This document shows, one piece after another, positions 2 through 57,448 of a stretch of 64,000 bases of DNA. Where the stretch lies: NCBI GenBank assembly GCA_022984795.1, contig JALIHJ010000047.1:148774-212773 (forward strand). Reading direction: 5' to 3'. Each line of letters starts with the position of its first letter. Position 1 is the first letter of the stretch. Below the pieces are notes generated by a model, which did not search any database, was not told the DNA's origin, and was given only the letters and a program-made list of their open reading frames with translations. The DNA comes from Fabrea salina. Its lineage: Eukaryota; Ciliophora; Heterotrichea; Heterotrichida; Fabreidae. The position numbers were made by a program, and so were the translations under genes.

Positions 2-3000
2 GACATGTACGAAGGGCAGATTTTTGCCTTGCTGGGCCACAACGGAGCGGGCAAGACCACCACTATCTCGATGCTCACAGGGCTGCTCAAACCCACTGCT
101 GGCGACATGACAGTTAACAACCTCAACTTCAAGTCAGACATGAGTGAGATCCGCAAGAAGTTAGGAGTGTGTCCCCAGCACGACGTGCTCTTCAAAGAAC
201 TCACAGTGGAAGAACACCTGCGGATGTTTTGTCGCTTCAAAGGACTCTCGGACAAGGCAGAGATCCAGGCAGCAGTGGAGGAAAAGATCCAGCAAGTGGA
301 CCTGGAAGACAAACGCAGCACCCCAGCCAAGAACCTTTCAGGAGGCCAGAAACGCAAACTGTCACTGGCCATTGCTTTGATCGGGGGCTCTTCAATTGTG
401 ATGCTTGACGAACCCACCTCAGGCATGGACTTAACTGCCCGCAGAAGGATGTGGGACATGCTGCGCAACGACAAACGCGGACGCATCATCATCTTGACCA
501 CCCACTACATGGAAGAAGCCGACATCCTAGCTGACCGAATTGCCATCATGCAGGACGGAAGAGTTTACTGCTTGGGAAGTTCGTTGTTCCTGAAGAACCG
601 GTTCGGAGTGGGCTACGTGCTAGTGATTGCCAAGAAGCTAGGAGTGGCCTGCGAAAGCCACACCCAAAAAGTAGTCAACTTAGTCAGAAAGTGGATCCCA
701 GACTACAAACTGCTCTCAGACGTGTCAGCTGAAATCACCTTCCAGATTCCACTCTCAGCCACCGACAAGTTCAAGGAGTTCTTCGAAGACCTCGACAGAA
801 ACATGGCCCCTCTAGAACTGCTGACTTACGGAATGTCAGTAACCACCCTCGAAGAAGTGTTCATCAACGTTGCCCGCGGAAACGAGTCTCCAGACAAAAA
901 CCGAAAAACCAGCATCCTTGGAGTCGAGTCTAGATCAGAGAAAGAATCTGACACAGAAAAAACCCTAGACAAAACAGCTCCTTTGGTTGATAAAAAAGAA
1001 GAAACCGAGAACTTCGTGATCACAAATGACAGGATAAAAGGGAAAAAATTATTCTTTCTGCACTTTATAGCTTTGCTGCAAAAGCGTGTAAAGTACTCTC
1101 TAAGAGATTACAGAGGTCTCTTACTGGAAATCATTCTTCCGATACTAGTTATACTGTTCGGAGTATTACTACTGACTAAATTCGCGATCTTCAAAGACCA
1201 AAGATCCTGGGAACTTGATTTAAACCAATACCACAATCCCCAAATTATCTATTTTTCAAATAATCAAGACTCAACTGAAGCTAGAGATATTGCAAGCAAC
1301 TTAAACGACACAGGTTTATCTTATACAATAGAAAGCAAAACAGAAAATGTATCAGATTTTGTTGACCAAATAAACCAAAGAGCAAGAAGAAAGGACCCTT
1401 ACTTAGGTGCTTATTACTTCAAAGAAACCAATAACTCTGCTTTTCAAGTTATGATTTTCCAAAATTCAACAGCAATACAAGCTTGTCCTACATTCGGGAA
1501 CGACTTAGCTAGTAGAACTCTTAGTTATAAAAACCATTCCAGAGCCATTCAAGTATACAACCATCCCTTGCCTCTGACTAAAAAGCAATCCAACCTTGCT
1601 AAGAATGCAGGGGCTCTGAATGCTGCTGAGATCTTTGCAATTGGCATAGCTTTTATTCCAACTGGGATAATTACTTTTGTGGTCAAAGAAAGAGAAAATG
1701 GCGTCAAGCACCAACACTTGGTAAGTGGAGTTTCAGTGCCTGCGTACTGGCTGAGTATTTACTTATGGGATTTGATCAAGTACATCCCTCCTTGCATTGC
1801 TGGACCTATGATAATCAAACTTTTTGATTATAAGAGTTTCTGTGAAACTTATGAACTGTTTGCTGCCACCTGGACTATTTTCATTCTTTATGGAATATCC
1901 ATTGCTCCCTTTACTTACTTGTGCAGTTTCTTGTTTAAGAGCTACTCTATGGCTCAGTTCGTTGTCTTTATCTACAACATGGTCATTGGGGCTATTGTCA
2001 CTCTTATAATATGGATACTAAGACTCATCAACGACACTACAAGGGATATTGCTGATATTCTAGTTTGGCCTTTCAGATTTTCAACACCTACTTTTAACTA
2101 CGCATTTAGTTTGATGACTATTTCTAACAGAGAGGCTTACCAGCAAGCTTATGGTCTTAAAAATATACCCGGAGCATTTTCTTGGGAAATCTCAGGAATA
2201 GACTTGTTGTTTATGGGGCTGCACTTTGTGTTGGGTTTCTTGTTGGTGTTTTTCATTGAGTGGCAGAGCAGTTCGCAGTGGCTCAGGAACTTGGGCAGTG
2301 CTAAAGACCCAGGGCCTAACCAGTTCACTCCTGACGACGACGTGGAGGCCCTGAAGCACACTGCCCGCGACACTGACCCCGAGCAAGTGGCAGTTAAGGT
2401 TGCGGACGTCCGCAAGGTCTACGGCAACTTCTTCACCAAGAACCCCAAAGTGGCGATTCAGGAGGTGTCGTTTGTGGTGCCTTTCCAGGAGTGCTTTGCT
2501 TTGCTGGGAGTCAACGGAGCAGGCAAGACCAGCACTTTCCGCATTCTCACGGGAGAGTACGGTCCTACCCAGGGCCAGGCCTTCATCAACGGCAACAGTG
2601 TGACTGAGGACTTGTCTAAGGCCCGTTACTGCATAGGTTACTGTCCGCAGTTCGACGCCCTCACTGAGTTGCTGACGCCCAAGGAGCACCTCGAGCTTTA
2701 CGCCCGGATCAAAGGCATTCCTGAACGACTTATTGACTACTTCGTGACTAAGCAACTGAACGACATGGGACTGATGCAGTACGAGAAGGTGCGTGCAGGA
2801 GCACTGAGTGGAGGCAACAAACGCAAACTGAGTGTAGCGATTGCCTGCATTGGCAACCCGCCTGTGGTCTTTTTGGACGAACCCAGTGCAGGCATGGACC
2901 CCATGGCCAGAAAGAACATGTGGGCAGTGATCAACCGCATCAAGCAGCAAAGAGTGAGTTTGATCCTGACCACCCACTCCATGGACGAAGCCGAAGCCCT

Positions 3001-3613
3001 GTGCGACAAAATGGGCATCATGGTGGGGGGCAGGTTCAGGTGCTTCGGAAGTGCCACCCACATCAAGGACAAGTTCAGCAGTGGCTACGAGTTCCTGCTC
3101 AAAGTAAGCCAGCCCCAACTTGAGAAACTCAGCCAAATGGAGTCGCAGCTCCAACCTGCCATAGGCAACTCTGGCCAAGTAGACAGCAACCAACTCGAAC
3201 AGTGCCTGCGCTTGCTGGAGTGTGCAGAGTTCTACGGCGAAGTAAGTGCCCAGGGCTCAGGGTCCCACCTGCACGAACAACTCAAAACCGAAGGCATCAT
3301 AGAAGCCAGGAGTTTGGTGGAGTGGGTTGCCATTGAAAAGCAAGGACTCTACGTGTTCCGGCTGCTCGAAGAACTGTTCAAGCAAGTCAGCTTGGTAGAA
3401 CACTACGGAACCTACTTCAACTTCAAAGTCGAAAAACAAGAAGGACAGAGTCTAGGCTACTTGTTCGGCAAAATCGAAGAAATCAAAGGAAGACTGGGAG
3501 CTTCAGAGTACTCCCTGTCACAAACCACCCTCGAACAAATCTTCAACAAGTTCGCCACCGAACCCCAAAACCTCTCTACTGTCCAAAGACCCAGTTCAGT
3601 CCAACCCCTTTAA
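2..3613 (+). CDS. ABC transporter, subfamily A, 5'-truncated by the window edge
   Basis: This is the C-terminal three quarters of a full-length ABCA-type transporter, which would move lipids or other hydrophobic substrates across a membrane by ATP hydrolysis. The reading frame is open at the window edge. The first ATG inside the window (5-7) lies within the first nucleotide-binding domain, so the true start is upstream. Visible in order: NBD1 with Walker A GHNGAGKT (about residue 12), signature LSGGQKRKL and Walker B VMLDEPTSGMD; then a second transmembrane domain with a large non-cytosolic loop (about residues 350-760); then NBD2 with Walker A GVNGAGKT (about 834), signature LSGGNKRKL (about 935) and FLDEPSAGMDP. 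The order NBD1-TMD2-NBD2 matches the complete paralogue at 14278-19422. Both NBD segments look richer in G+C than the TMD segment. The next gene starts 27 nt downstream. Substrate cannot be inferred. Confidence 0.95.
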   Translation, partial: DMYEGQIFALLGHNGAGKTTTISMLTGLLKPTAGDMTVNNLNFKSDMSEIRKKLGVCPQHDVLFKELTVEEHLRMFCRFKGLSDKAEIQAAVEEKIQQVDLEDKRSTPAKNLSGGQKRKLSLAIALIGGSSIVMLDEPTSGMDLTARRRMWDMLRNDKRGRIIILTTHYMEEADILADRIAIMQDGRVYCLGSSLFLKNRFGVGYVLVIAKKLGVACESHTQKVVNLVRKWIPDYKLLSDVSAEITFQIPLSATDKFKEFFEDLDRNMAPLELLTYGMSVTTLEEVFINVARGNESPDKNRKTSILGVESRSEKESDTEKTLDKTAPLVDKKEETENFVITNDRIKGKKLFFLHFIALLQKRVKYSLRDYRGLLLEIILPILVILFGVLLLTKFAIFKDQRSWELDLNQYHNPQIIYFSNNQDSTEARDIASNLNDTGLSYTIESKTENVSDFVDQINQRARRKDPYLGAYYFKETNNSAFQVMIFQNSTAIQACPTFGNDLASRTLSYKNHSRAIQVYNHPLPLTKKQSNLAKNAGALNAAEIFAIGIAFIPTGIITFVVKERENGVKHQHLVSGVSVPAYWLSIYLWDLIKYIPPCIAGPMIIKLFDYKSFCETYELFAATWTIFILYGISIAPFTYLCSFLFKSYSMAQFVVFIYNMVIGAIVTLIIWILRLINDTTRDIADILVWPFRFSTPTFNYAFSLMTISNREAYQQAYGLKNIPGAFSWEISGIDLLFMGLHFVLGFLLVFFIEWQSSSQWLRNLGSAKDPGPNQFTPDDDVEALKHTARDTDPEQVAVKVADVRKVYGNFFTKNPKVAIQEVSFVVPFQECFALLGVNGAGKTSTFRILTGEYGPTQGQAFINGNSVTEDLSKARYCIGYCPQFDALTELLTPKEHLELYARIKGIPERLIDYFVTKQLNDMGLMQYEKVRAGALSGGNKRKLSVAIACIGNPPVVFLDEPSAGMDPMARKNMWAVINRIKQQRVSLILTTHSMDEAEALCDKMGIMVGGRFRCFGSATHIKDKFSSGYEFLLKVSQPQLEKLSQMESQLQPAIGNSGQVDSNQLEQCLRLLECAEFYGEVSAQGSGSHLHEQLKTEGIIEARSLVEWVAIEKQGLYVFRLLEELFKQVSLVEHYGTYFNFKVEKQEGQSLGYLFGKIEEIKGRLGASEYSLSQTTLEQIFNKFATEPQNLSTVQRPSSVQPL

Positions 3614-47912: not shown

Positions 47913-47929
47913 TGATTTGGTAGACAAAT
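47913..47929 (+). repeat. 17-nt direct repeat, left copy (element 2)
   Basis: TGATTTGGTAGACAAAT, perfectly repeated at 48589-48605, with mismatching flanks on both sides. Together the copies bracket the acidic/basic ORF at 47941-48603. Confidence 0.9.
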
Positions 47930-47940
47930 TTATTTATTTG

Positions 47941-48603
47941 TTATGTTATCAAGCCCTTGGGCCTTTTTAGAGTTACAGTGAGAGGGGTTTGCTTCGCGGG
48001 TCCTTTGTTTCGCTTGCATTTCCTCTTCTTCCAGGCACAGTCGTTTGTGTTTTTTGTGTTTGTTGTTTGTCTGGTGTCTATTTTTGTGCTTCTGGGTAGT
48101 TGTGGTTCTTTCTGTTTTTGTGAGAGCTTCCTTCTTTGTTTTCTTGTGTCCAGTCTTGTTTCTTCGAAGGTTGTTTTCGTTGCTCTTGTTACGCTGGGTG
48201 TGCTGCGTTTATTGTTTTCTCCTGGTTCTTTTTCCTTTCTGTCCAGAATTGGTTCTTCATCGTCCAGGTTTCTCATGATTGCATCGAGCAATTTGTCTTC
48301 TTTGCTTTTTTCAGTGAGAGTTTCCTTTGTCTTTCTTTGTGGATTTTTTGTTGCGAGCTCCATGTCTTCGTCCGGGTTCTCTTCCGTATTTAGCTCTAGG
48401 AGTACTTCCAGGTCCGAGTCTTCTTCTGAGTCTAGGTCTGTGTCTTCTTCCCAGCTTAAGTAAGAATCTATATCTGAGTCTGAGTTCTCCTCGAAGTCTG
48501 AGTCTTCGCTCCATTGGTCGTCTGAGTATTGCTCCTCTTCAGTTAAGGTCACAGAGCGCCGGAGGCTCCTGTATTTTCTTAAGGTGTCTGATTTGGTAGA
48601 CAA
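47941..48603 (-). CDS. Acidic-basic ORF of a small insertion-like element (no ATG at 5' end)
   Basis: An open frame of about 220 codons without an ATG near its start. The frame begins near the right 17-nt repeat, and the first ATG is at codon 81 (48363). The N-terminal part is strongly acidic and Ser-rich (DSDFEENSDSDIDSY), the rest basic. The last ~28 residues (RKCKRNKGPAKQTPLTVT then LKRPKGLIT) align closely with the end of the 67-residue protein at 56637-56840, at DNA level as well. The family is unknown. It could be a decayed or non-ATG-initiated coding region of a mobile element, or a gene whose start codon was lost (TTG in place of ATG). Confidence 0.5.
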   Translation of the reverse strand: MSTKSDTLRKYRSLRRSVTLTEEEQYSDDQWSEDSDFEENSDSDIDSYLSWEEDTDLDSEEDSDLEVLLELNTEENPDEDMELATKNPQRKTKETLTEKSKEDKLLDAIMRNLDDEEPILDRKEKEPGENNKRSTPSVTRATKTTFEETRLDTRKQRRKLSQKQKEPQLPRSTKIDTRQTTNTKNTNDCAWKKRKCKRNKGPAKQTPLTVTLKRPKGLIT

Positions 48604-48605
48604 AT
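48589..48605 (+). repeat. 17-nt direct repeat, right copy (element 2)
   Basis: Second copy of TGATTTGGTAGACAAAT, ending 2 nt before the ATG of the gene at 48608. Removing one copy and the intervening 659 nt would leave a ~55-60-nt intergenic spacer, typical of this chromosome. Confidence 0.9.
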
Positions 48606-48607
48606 AA

Positions 48608-49645
48608 ATGCTTATTCTAGTGATTCTGGCAAACTTGTGTCAAGCACTTAGGACGTCAAACTGCTACTCGGTGTCTTGCAGAGAGCTTCCAGAAGACCAA
48701 TGCATCGGAGTAGTTGGAAGCAATGTATACTTGAGTGAATGTCCTGAAGGAAAGTCTTGCTACGACAGAAACTACAACCTCGCTACTACTCTTTTCGACT
48801 GGTCAAACCAAACCTGTGTTGAGAGATACGACTACGGGTGTTATGTGCCGGTTGGAAGAGTGCCCCCAAAGAGTTTTGGGGCTGGTGAAAAGTGTTGTGG
48901 GTATGACTCTGTTTGCTACTCTGAAAAGTGTACAGAAAACAGATGCGAACCTGTCGAAAAGGGCAGAGAGTGTCGGTTCAACGAAGTTTGTGGTCCTGAT
49001 CTTTGGTGCAAAGACCAAGTTTGCACAGAAACTAGAAAGCCTGGGGAAAGCTGTGAAAGGGATGCAATGTGTGAGCTAGGTTGTGGCTGCCATTTAGGAA
49101 CTTGTACTCCTCTGTTTAGTTTGGACATAGGTACTGACACTGACTGCCGGGAGTGCTGTGAAACAACTTACAGAAACCCCGAAGGAAGGTGCGATAAAAT
49201 CGCCATTTGGGAAGAAACCTCAAGTGGACCAGTGCAACTAAAGTATCCTTTTGAGTGCGAAGTAGGTAATGACTGTGCTTACTATAGTCACTTTGGAGGA
49301 AAGCTTCAAGAAAGATCTGAGTGTGTGTGCTCAGGTAAAGAAACAAATGCAGGGTACTGCTCAGAATACTGGGGATTCAAGTACGCAGATCCTTATATTG
49401 CAAAGATCAAAAACAAGATTAACTGGAACAACTCAATATGCTCTGGAAGAAACGCTTTAAGGCTGACTCCTCAGAGCTTGTTTGGGTGCAACCTTATAGA
49501 CGAAGAGACTTACAGGTACACAAAGGAACTTGAAAACAAAGAAGCTTATTGGCCTGTGTTCCATTCTGGAGTTATAGACGAGTGTGCTTCCAAACTGGGT
49601 TTGTTCGACAAGGACTATATTGAAGACTACGAAAGTAAGTACTAA
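48608..49645 (+). CDS. Secreted cysteine-rich protein, Dickkopf-like spacing (345 aa)
   Basis: A short signal peptide (MLILVILANLCQA) is followed by a Cys-dense ectodomain with repeated small disulphide modules (CCGYDSVCYSEKCTENRC, FNEVCGPDLWCKDQVC, CERDAMCELGCGCHLGTC). This spacing recalls the Dickkopf N-terminal Cys-rich repeat that is expanded in ciliate secreted proteins. The last third has fewer Cys. No TM or GPI signal is evident. The ATG lies just 2 nt beyond the right 17-nt direct repeat. It is convergent with the giant surface-protein gene (12-nt gap). Confidence 0.8.
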   Translation: MLILVILANLCQALRTSNCYSVSCRELPEDQCIGVVGSNVYLSECPEGKSCYDRNYNLATTLFDWSNQTCVERYDYGCYVPVGRVPPKSFGAGEKCCGYDSVCYSEKCTENRCEPVEKGRECRFNEVCGPDLWCKDQVCTETRKPGESCERDAMCELGCGCHLGTCTPLFSLDIGTDTDCRECCETTYRNPEGRCDKIAIWEETSSGPVQLKYPFECEVGNDCAYYSHFGGKLQERSECVCSGKETNAGYCSEYWGFKYADPYIAKIKNKINWNNSICSGRNALRLTPQSLFGCNLIDEETYRYTKELENKEAYWPVFHSGVIDECASKLGLFDKDYIEDYESKY

Positions 49646-56494: not shown

Positions 56495-56609
56495 ACTTAA
56501 TATTGAATGTCTACTTTATTCAGAAATTGAAACACTACTGTGAAATACTTCCCTATAGAATCTAACTCACTTCACTGCAGCTACAGTTGTTTCTTTCATA
56601 GCTGCAAAT

Positions 56610-56628
56610 CCCCCGAAAACTGCACTAA
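56610..56628 (+). repeat. 19-nt imperfect direct repeat, left copy
   Basis: CCCCCGAAAACTGCACTAA recurs at 57114-57132 with one C/T difference, 504 nt apart, bracketing the small KRPKG-tail ORF and the GC-richer segment after it. Confidence 0.8.
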
Positions 56629-56642
56629 TTAATTAAATGTCT
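56626..56642 (+). repeat. 17-nt direct repeat, left copy (element 1), contains the ORF start
   Basis: TAATTAATTAAATGTCT, including the ATG and second codon of the 67-residue ORF. It is repeated perfectly at 56848-56864, 8 nt after that ORF's stop. Confidence 0.85.
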
Positions 56643-56840
56643 AACATAGCAATATACAGTAAAAAGTTCGAAAAGCAAGCAAGGGACGAAAAACTAAACA
56701 TGAAACATTTAGACAATGCAATAAAAAACTTCGCAGACTCCATACACCGGAAGAGGAATTGCAGGTGCAACAGAAAGAGACCCACCACGCAACAACCCTT
56801 CACTGGAACCAAAAAAAGGCCCAAGGGCTCGATAAAGTAA
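56637..56840 (+). CDS. Small basic protein with KRPKG tail (67 aa)
   Basis: The N-terminal half is helical and charged (MSNIAIYSKKFEKQARDEKL, then LDNAIKNFADSIH). The C-terminal half is basic with two Cys (RKRNCRCNRKRP) and ends GTKKRPKGSIK. The C-terminal ~28 residues align with the end of the ORF at 47941-48603, with shared nucleotide blocks such as AAAAAGGCCCAAGGGCT. Nucleic-acid binding would suit the composition, but no family is recognised. It lies in the spacer between two giant surface-protein genes, bracketed by direct repeats. Confidence 0.55.
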   Translation: MSNIAIYSKKFEKQARDEKLNMKHLDNAIKNFADSIHRKRNCRCNRKRPTTQQPFTGTKKRPKGSIK

Positions 56841-56847
56841 TAAATAA

Positions 56848-56864
56848 TAATTAATTAAATGTCT
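56848..56864 (+). repeat. 17-nt direct repeat, right copy (element 1)
   Basis: Second copy of TAATTAATTAAATGTCT. Its ATG opens a 23-codon reading frame (MSHGYPIALKPSPRVALPLC...). The AT-richness makes part of the repeat less surprising than in element 2. Confidence 0.8.
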
Positions 56865-57448
56865 CATGGATACCCAATAGCTCTAAAGCCTTCACCCCGC
56901 GTCGCATTACCGCTATGCATACGAGTATAAGGGTCTGGGCCTGACGGTTTTTATTGGACCTGCGCCGCCATTAAATCGATCTTCCAGGTACGTCAGCACT
57001 TCATTGAGTCCTCATGTTACAGCCACCTAGGAAGCCTTCGTCCACATCAGTAGCTGACATGCTTCACCACGCCCTTTCTGATCAGAAATTCAGGGAATTT
57101 CTTCTCATCTGACCCCCCGAAAACTGCATTAAAAATTTATTTTCTAACCCATTTGCACTACAAATCCATTTTTGAATTTCTTCAACAACTTAATTAAAGG
57201 GAATTATAAGCGAATTTACGTCTAAAAGTTGATGTTTACAGCAGCACTCAGAATAGACTGTGCTGATTTAACTCTAACAATTCTCAAAGTTGATTCTTAG
57301 TTATCCTGGTTTCGACTTGCTTTATTGAGACTCTAACTTTAAAGTCAATAACAGTTAGGTAGAATAAGCTTGTTTTAGTACTTAACTTAAGACAATCGAA
57401 GGAGAAACAGACTATTTAAGACAGGCTTTTAATAAGTCTAATGGTAAG
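56865..57448. other. Intergenic region with a GC-richer island, no confident gene
   Basis: Positions about 56865-57113 look distinctly richer in G+C than the AT-rich flanks. They contain only short frames, such as a 23-codon one at 56861 and a 32-codon one that starts MLQPPRKPSS and ends TGA near 57111. A structured RNA is possible but no known class is recognised. The remainder (57133-57448) is AT-rich. It includes TTTGAATTTCTTCAACAAC near 57173-57191, also found near 62013, upstream of the second giant gene. Confidence 0.5.
57114..57132 (+). repeat. 19-nt imperfect direct repeat, right copy
   Basis: CCCCCGAAAACTGCATTAA, 18 of 19 positions identical to 56610-56628. Confidence 0.8.

Follow-up and report, generated by a model that had tools for sequence, protein, structure and literature searches.

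The 205-nt sequence at 56643–56847 (+) of the window, the whole 64,000-nt stretch of DNA analysed here, derives almost certainly from reverse transcription of the 3' end of a LINE RNA, and the element at 47941 arose by the same route from the RNA of a non-autonomous family, here called B. The insertion that underlies the 67-aa ORF at 56637 is real but ordinary, a 5'-truncated LINE stub lodged in a repeat that was there before it; what is out of the ordinary is B. As the sequence shows, the assembly searched (18.33 Mb, 103 contigs) contains a family of copies with shared 3' ends, varying 5' ends and differing duplications, of which one full copy encodes a predicted reverse transcriptase (RT) and endonuclease. 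Two odd mini-ORFs thereby become insertions of a known type, and caution is advisable because ORF callers may annotate LINE stubs as genes.

The 67-aa ORF (56637–56840, plus strand), whose C-terminal end reads KRPKGSIK directly before the stop, lies between two exact copies of the 17-nt repeat TAATTAATTAAATGTCT. The left copy (56626–56642) contains the ATG of the ORF, and the right copy (56848–56864) begins 7 nt past the stop codon. Because the ATG at 56637 sits in the duplicated target, we regard the ORF as a by-product: two of its codons stem from the target, and the remainder is the C-terminus of a LINE ORF. The LINE fragment itself, recognised by protein matches and a conserved 3' motif, includes an TAATAAATAA tail, its 3' edge being ambiguous by a few A/T bases. 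At the second site, the element at 47941–48603 (minus strand) is enclosed by exact copies of another 17-nt repeat, ATTTGTCTACCAAATCA, at 48589–48605 on the 5' side of the element and at 47913–47929 on its 3' side. Perfect 17-nt repeats flanking both ORFs and differing in sequence between the sites, as given in a preliminary description of this DNA, can thus be read exactly; the distance of 8–11 nt from stop to repeat stated there is right for the 47941 site (11 nt) but not for the 56637 site (7 nt). The longest word shared in 2000 dinucleotide shuffles per flank pair was 12 nt, and none of the 2000 reached 17 nt at either site. Among 3000 random places with matching spacing, repeats of at least 17 nt occurred in 3 and 2 cases for the two sites, which presumably landed on the elements themselves, and 13 nt was reached in 5 and 10. 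The same description had the two elements sharing about 28 C-terminal residues and the following 3' nucleotides, and this is borne out by 79% identity over 99 aligned positions (56750–56847 against 48028–47934 on the minus strand), which cover these residues and the tail. The rest of 56541–57200 gave no match to the 47941 element at E 1e-3, and Pfam returned no match above cut-off for the 67-aa and 220-aa ORFs.

A protein search of the genome with the 67-aa ORF gave 19 matches, one being the ORF itself, so the further copies expected of a family are present. Ten of the 18 non-self matches begin at residue 3, which is the first codon past the left duplication; of the remaining eight, two start at residue 4 and six further downstream. 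When translated, several of the loci stay in frame upstream of the tail, some with a zinc-knuckle-like stretch. LINE copies that are truncated at the 5' end and flanked by target-site duplications are textbook. We looked for such duplications in 35 copies, made up of the two elements of the window, 18 loci of LINE type and 15 of B type, comparing the 3' flank with, usually, the 1500 bases upstream of the match and counting exact repeats. A repeat of 13–18 nt, its sequence differing by site, was found in 19 of the 35, so that direct repeats around the element recur beyond the two sites for which this architecture had been proposed. The other 16 showed no repeat of at least 13 nt at this setting; L018 is among them since its 5' end fell outside the stretch, and age or rearrangement may explain the missing duplications in the remaining copies. 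The 35 copies are not all independent, the pairs L047/L051, L048/L049 and L020/L021 being duplicated loci, and L047 and L051 represent one arrangement in which the repeat spans two tandem B copies. As a control, mismatched 5' and 3' flanks were compared; 43 of the 1122 pairs shared at least 13 nt, a count raised by pairs with element sequence in common and by duplicated loci. At every junction read base by base (the two window copies, L009, L010, L013, L040, L041, L045 and L046), the duplication directly abuts the element.

The LINE origin of the tail is apparent from a copy of about 4.1 kb on contig C51 (L039, minus strand), which contains a cysteine-rich knuckle in its first part, then an endonuclease, an RT and a C-terminus like that of the 56637 ORF. 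The tail match forms the end of a 796-aa frame with an RVT_1 domain (E 1.3e-39), and the best solved relative is the LINE-1 ORF2 protein (E 1.7e-31); a zf-RVT match in this frame is weak and below cut-off (0.016). The endonuclease was recognised by Exo_endo_phos (1.5e-9) and Exo_endo_phos_2 (2e-6). By eye, the copy is bounded by a 15-nt duplication, and its host site reads as cysteine-rich coding sequence. Its frame includes two in-frame TGA codons. In the window, 24 of the 25 stop-to-stop frames of at least 300 codons end in TAA or TAG, the single TGA-ending one being antisense to a longer ORF. With TGA read through, 23 of the 34 window frames of at least 250 codons are without TGA; the other 11, by our reading, overlap longer ORFs or carry TGA near the 5' end. 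At 56643–56847 we find what is expected of a LINE insertion, namely a duplication of variable sequence, a 3' end held in common with copies of variable 5' truncation, and a relative coding for an RT and an AP-type endonuclease, this relative being the one full copy on C51. That copy belongs to another subfamily, its tail being 36–38% identical to the one at 56637, and a full-length LINE of the 56637 subfamily was not found in the 18.3-Mb assembly; such a source copy would be expected if the family were active but does not define an insertion. RVT_1 was detected at at least five places in the assembly, with one complete domain found, on C51; the matches on C4 and C20 are partial and accompanied by LINE protein matches, that on C68 is weak, and that on C18 is partial within a 918-aa frame. 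The endonuclease piece, searched against the genome, matched C51 only.

The element at the second site (47930–48588, minus strand) is, by comparison with its genome copies, a 5'-truncated member of the approximately 930-bp family B. Its ORF gave 30 match rows against the genome, itself included, with several rows per locus. Full B copies, located on C32, C81, C26 and C29, carry a single ORF, intact with 303 aa in L040 and L041 and with 291 aa in L045 and L046, and no RT of their own; all four share the 5' end AAAAATGGAAAATCGG, which follows straight after different flanks, and other copies have varied later start points, some with stops. Because several copies are nearly identical, B has moved recently; L040 and L041 are identical over all 923 bases compared. 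The B product reads as acidic, then basic, and Pfam gave no match for the 303-aa ORF. One protein of a large database (P0001) matches it with E 9.1e-45, 122 of 183 aligned positions being identical at the C-terminal end and the N-terminus being different. Comparison of the B ORFs of L040 and L045, one from each of the two main groups, yielded a dN/dS of 0.42 from 14.5 synonymous and 23.5 nonsynonymous changes (38 in total, transitions uncorrected). In 13 overlapping pairs in all, with the stop codons of L047 skipped, the other values were 0.34–0.89, apart from one of 0 (a single change) and one pair without changes; the ratios hint at constraint on the ORF, on which we do not rely. The 3' approximately 98 nt of B match the 56637 LINE subfamily at the 79% identity given above, so B has this end in common with the LINE and is presumably a non-autonomous element mobilised in trans by LINE enzymes. 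The view that the two sites hold the same kind of element has to be given up: the one at 56637 is LINE-derived, the one at 47941 belongs to a separate non-autonomous family, and only the 3' end is shared. Despite the recent movement of B, the assembly, which is possibly incomplete, shows no intact LINE from the subfamily that matches it. At 48589–48608 the B copy lies antisense to and directly upstream of a 345-aa ORF, and because its duplication ends 2 bases before the ATG at 48608, the B insertion has separated this gene from its earlier upstream region.

Instead of being a separate mobile element, B might have arisen from a LINE by internal deletion with retention of the first ORF, as HAL1 did, a reading to which we give somewhat less than an even chance. 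Its full copies lack an RT and nevertheless match the 56637 LINE subfamily over their 3' approximately 98 nt, and two further loci suggest that the 5' end of B may be that of an unseen LINE. One of these (L055, C19) has a decayed B 5' end (74% over 232 nt) followed by LINE sequence; in the other (L056, C71), what comes after a B-like 5' end (77% over 158 nt) matches none of the loci compared and has one further weak match in the genome, on C24. Either locus may be a chimera or what is left of an unseen LINE whose start resembled B. However, the first part of L039, the only full LINE found, is different, and in this part, as in the rest of that copy, the B ORF finds no tblastn match at E 0.01. 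A deleted-LINE origin of B is compatible with the explanation of the 56637 fragment as a LINE stub.

The sequence held in common by the LINE fragments and B ends in a conserved motif, AAGGCCCAAGGGCTCGATAAAGTAATAA, located at 56816–56843 (+) in the window fragment by genome matches and alignment, where it overlaps the last codons of the ORF. A degenerate 28-base version, composed from copies already seen, matched the genome exactly 47 times, compared with 0 for the reversed control. Among these matches, a tail of exactly the 56637 type also stands at C1:38205, C2:236191, C8:312053, C66:77391 and C69:72814. An alignment of 17 selected copies has 38 columns, of which 15 do not vary; L022 and L023 were left out of it, L025 was re-cut, and near-duplicate loci and decayed tails such as that of L026 were excluded. 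The close copies L018 and L019 carry the motif in another frame, reading RGPRAR for KRPKG with the nucleotides kept, and their relative L024 retains the KRPKG frame. That L018 and L019 retain the nucleotides in another frame suggests, without amounting to proof, that it is the nucleic acid and not the peptide that is conserved. A hairpin of 4–5 bp was predicted in seven of nine folded tails, the other two giving no fold or a different one. In the alignment, 86.3% of cells pair, compared with 77.5% after a one-column slide of one side, and among the aligned copies none of the five pairs showed a change on both sides.

We consider it very improbable that the two sites represent tiny elements, autonomous or self-sufficient, each consisting of an ORF enclosed by its two repeats. 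In favour of such a unit, the reading frame stays open over the whole element in both cases, and the unlinked stubs L009 (oriented 2978) and L010 (oriented 3752) behave as a defined short unit would, having the same start base, identity over 185 of 185 nt and different duplications. Against this stand the start codon, which belongs to the target, the homology, which in other copies extends further upstream and on C51 as far as the RT and endonuclease, and the RGPRAR reading of L018 and L019, in which the DNA motif is intact and the peptide is not. The stubs L009 and L010 would fit a short RNA or a strong stop site having served on two occasions. The suggestion of a tiny-element family or a recurrent duplication mechanism therefore survives in part: there is a dispersed family with a recurring architecture and one duplication mechanism, but the 67-aa ORF is not the unit of the element. 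A retained internal eliminated sequence (IES) or a DNA transposon left in the macronuclear genome is barely credible. In its favour, the genome is probably that of a heterotrich ciliate, as CCCTAACA repeats at contig starts indicate, and the IESs of Blepharisma are described in part of one report as TA-bound (PMC9942856); against it, the duplications here are 13–18 nt long and differ in sequence, and the copies share their 3' and not their 5' end and encode an RT. Of the six contig starts examined, five open with CCCTAACA repeats, their first 600 bases containing between 22 and 73 exact units, and C17, the contig of L021, has none. Because CCCTAACA is the unit reported for Blepharisma telomeres, according to a section of PMC9942806, the assembly is likely a heterotrich macronuclear genome.

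The LINE stub is nested in an older SINE-like repeat, R (56625–57113, minus strand), identified by genome matches, which is 5'-truncated, runs antisense to the LINE fragment and has its A/T tail split by it. R is itself bordered by a 15-nt duplication, CCCCCGAAAACTGCA, at 56610–56624 on the left and 57114–57128 on the right, read in both flanks and having a 14-nt core that occurs at two places in the window. For the part at 56865–57112, the genome search gave 41 match pieces, counting its own, and some contigs have more than one. In L019, L052, L016 and L024, which are paralogous sites and not the same locus in another strain, R runs into its A/T tail without a LINE fragment; because the tail is split in the window and other R copies are without the fragment, R must have been inserted first and the LINE fragment second. 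R copies are often 5'-truncated, and a longer head beginning CATCCAGCTCAGTTCTGTGGAC, present in L019, L052 and L016, is absent from the window copy. Rfam gave no match at gathering threshold in the window, the best for the R region (E 1.2) being taken as chance, and ARAGORN found no tRNA in the window. A B fragment adjoins the R 3' end in L052 (~2767–3117) and in L053 (~2913–2993), in the position that the LINE fragment occupies in the window; insertion may be favoured in the A/T tails of R. A 44–45-nt piece of the R 3' end also occurs alone, about 5–12 kb from the contig starts, on C26, C33, C66, C67, C68, C73, C92 and C100; on C66 and C67 it is followed by a LINE-type 3' motif no more than 40 nt away.

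Based on this arrangement, we propose the following course of events for the LINE fragment, in which (i) a LINE protein would nick the A/T-rich tail of R; (ii) cDNA synthesis would be primed on the 3' tail of the LINE RNA, consisting of the hairpin-like AGGCCNAAGGGCT and TAA/TAAA repeats; (iii) reverse transcription would stop after about 205 nt; (iv) repair of the staggered break would leave the 17-nt target-site duplication; and (v) the truncated LINE frame would by chance read back without a stop to an ATG of the duplicated target, giving the 67-aa ORF. The 47941 element would have taken the same route, starting from the RNA of B with its LINE-like 3' end and its own ORF. What we infer from the structure of the copies is that reverse transcription was target-primed, that the tail serves in recognition and that B was mobilised in trans. 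A wider scenario, which we regard as doubtful, would have a somatic genome that holds mostly LINE 3' stubs together with the recently active, RT-less but ORF-bearing B, while the autonomous LINEs that gave rise to them are missing and perhaps confined to the germline nucleus; the charged protein of B would act as a functional partner in trans of the LINE RT, and the LINE 3' recognition sequence would double as the coding end of both ORFs. The recent movement of B without a visible autonomous driver in the assembly would allow a direct test of how transposons in heterotrichs are divided between germline and soma.

Elements that lack an RT and are LINE-dependent or LINE-derived include HAL1 of mammals, HeT-A of Drosophila and RIME/ingi of trypanosomes, and both HAL1 and HeT-A keep an ORF. 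B resembles these in being without an RT; its ORF has no Pfam match and no tblastn match in the single full LINE at E 0.01.

The preliminary description did not recognise the element type as a described one, yet the mechanism is known, and LINEs are present in heterotrich and karyorelict ciliate genomes according to parts of three reports (PMC9942856, PMC9942806, PMC11441545). The elements described in those parts for the macronuclear genome of Blepharisma stoltei (PMC9942856, PMC9942806) and for Loxodes magnus (PMC11441545) are APE-type LINEs with an AP-type endonuclease and RVT_1, as here, and they likewise lie in a somatic or macronuclear genome with many incomplete copies. The likeness is one of domain content and setting. 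In contrast to the Blepharisma and Loxodes LINEs as presented in those portions, at least one complete RT domain, the only one found, exists here, and a shared 3' motif and duplications are readable.

In LINEs of the stringent type, the protein recognises a 3' stem-loop, and the 3' tail is common to the LINE and its partner SINEs, as set out in a section of PMC4176376. Unlike UnaL2 and ZfL2, the examples treated in that section, the elements here have a hairpin of 4–5 pairs without covariation and a motif that overlaps the last codons of the ORF. They agree with these LINEs and their partner SINEs in the conserved 3' end, the short simple repeats, the tail held in common with non-autonomous elements and a possible short hairpin; the 3' motif may be recognised in the manner of stringent LINEs.
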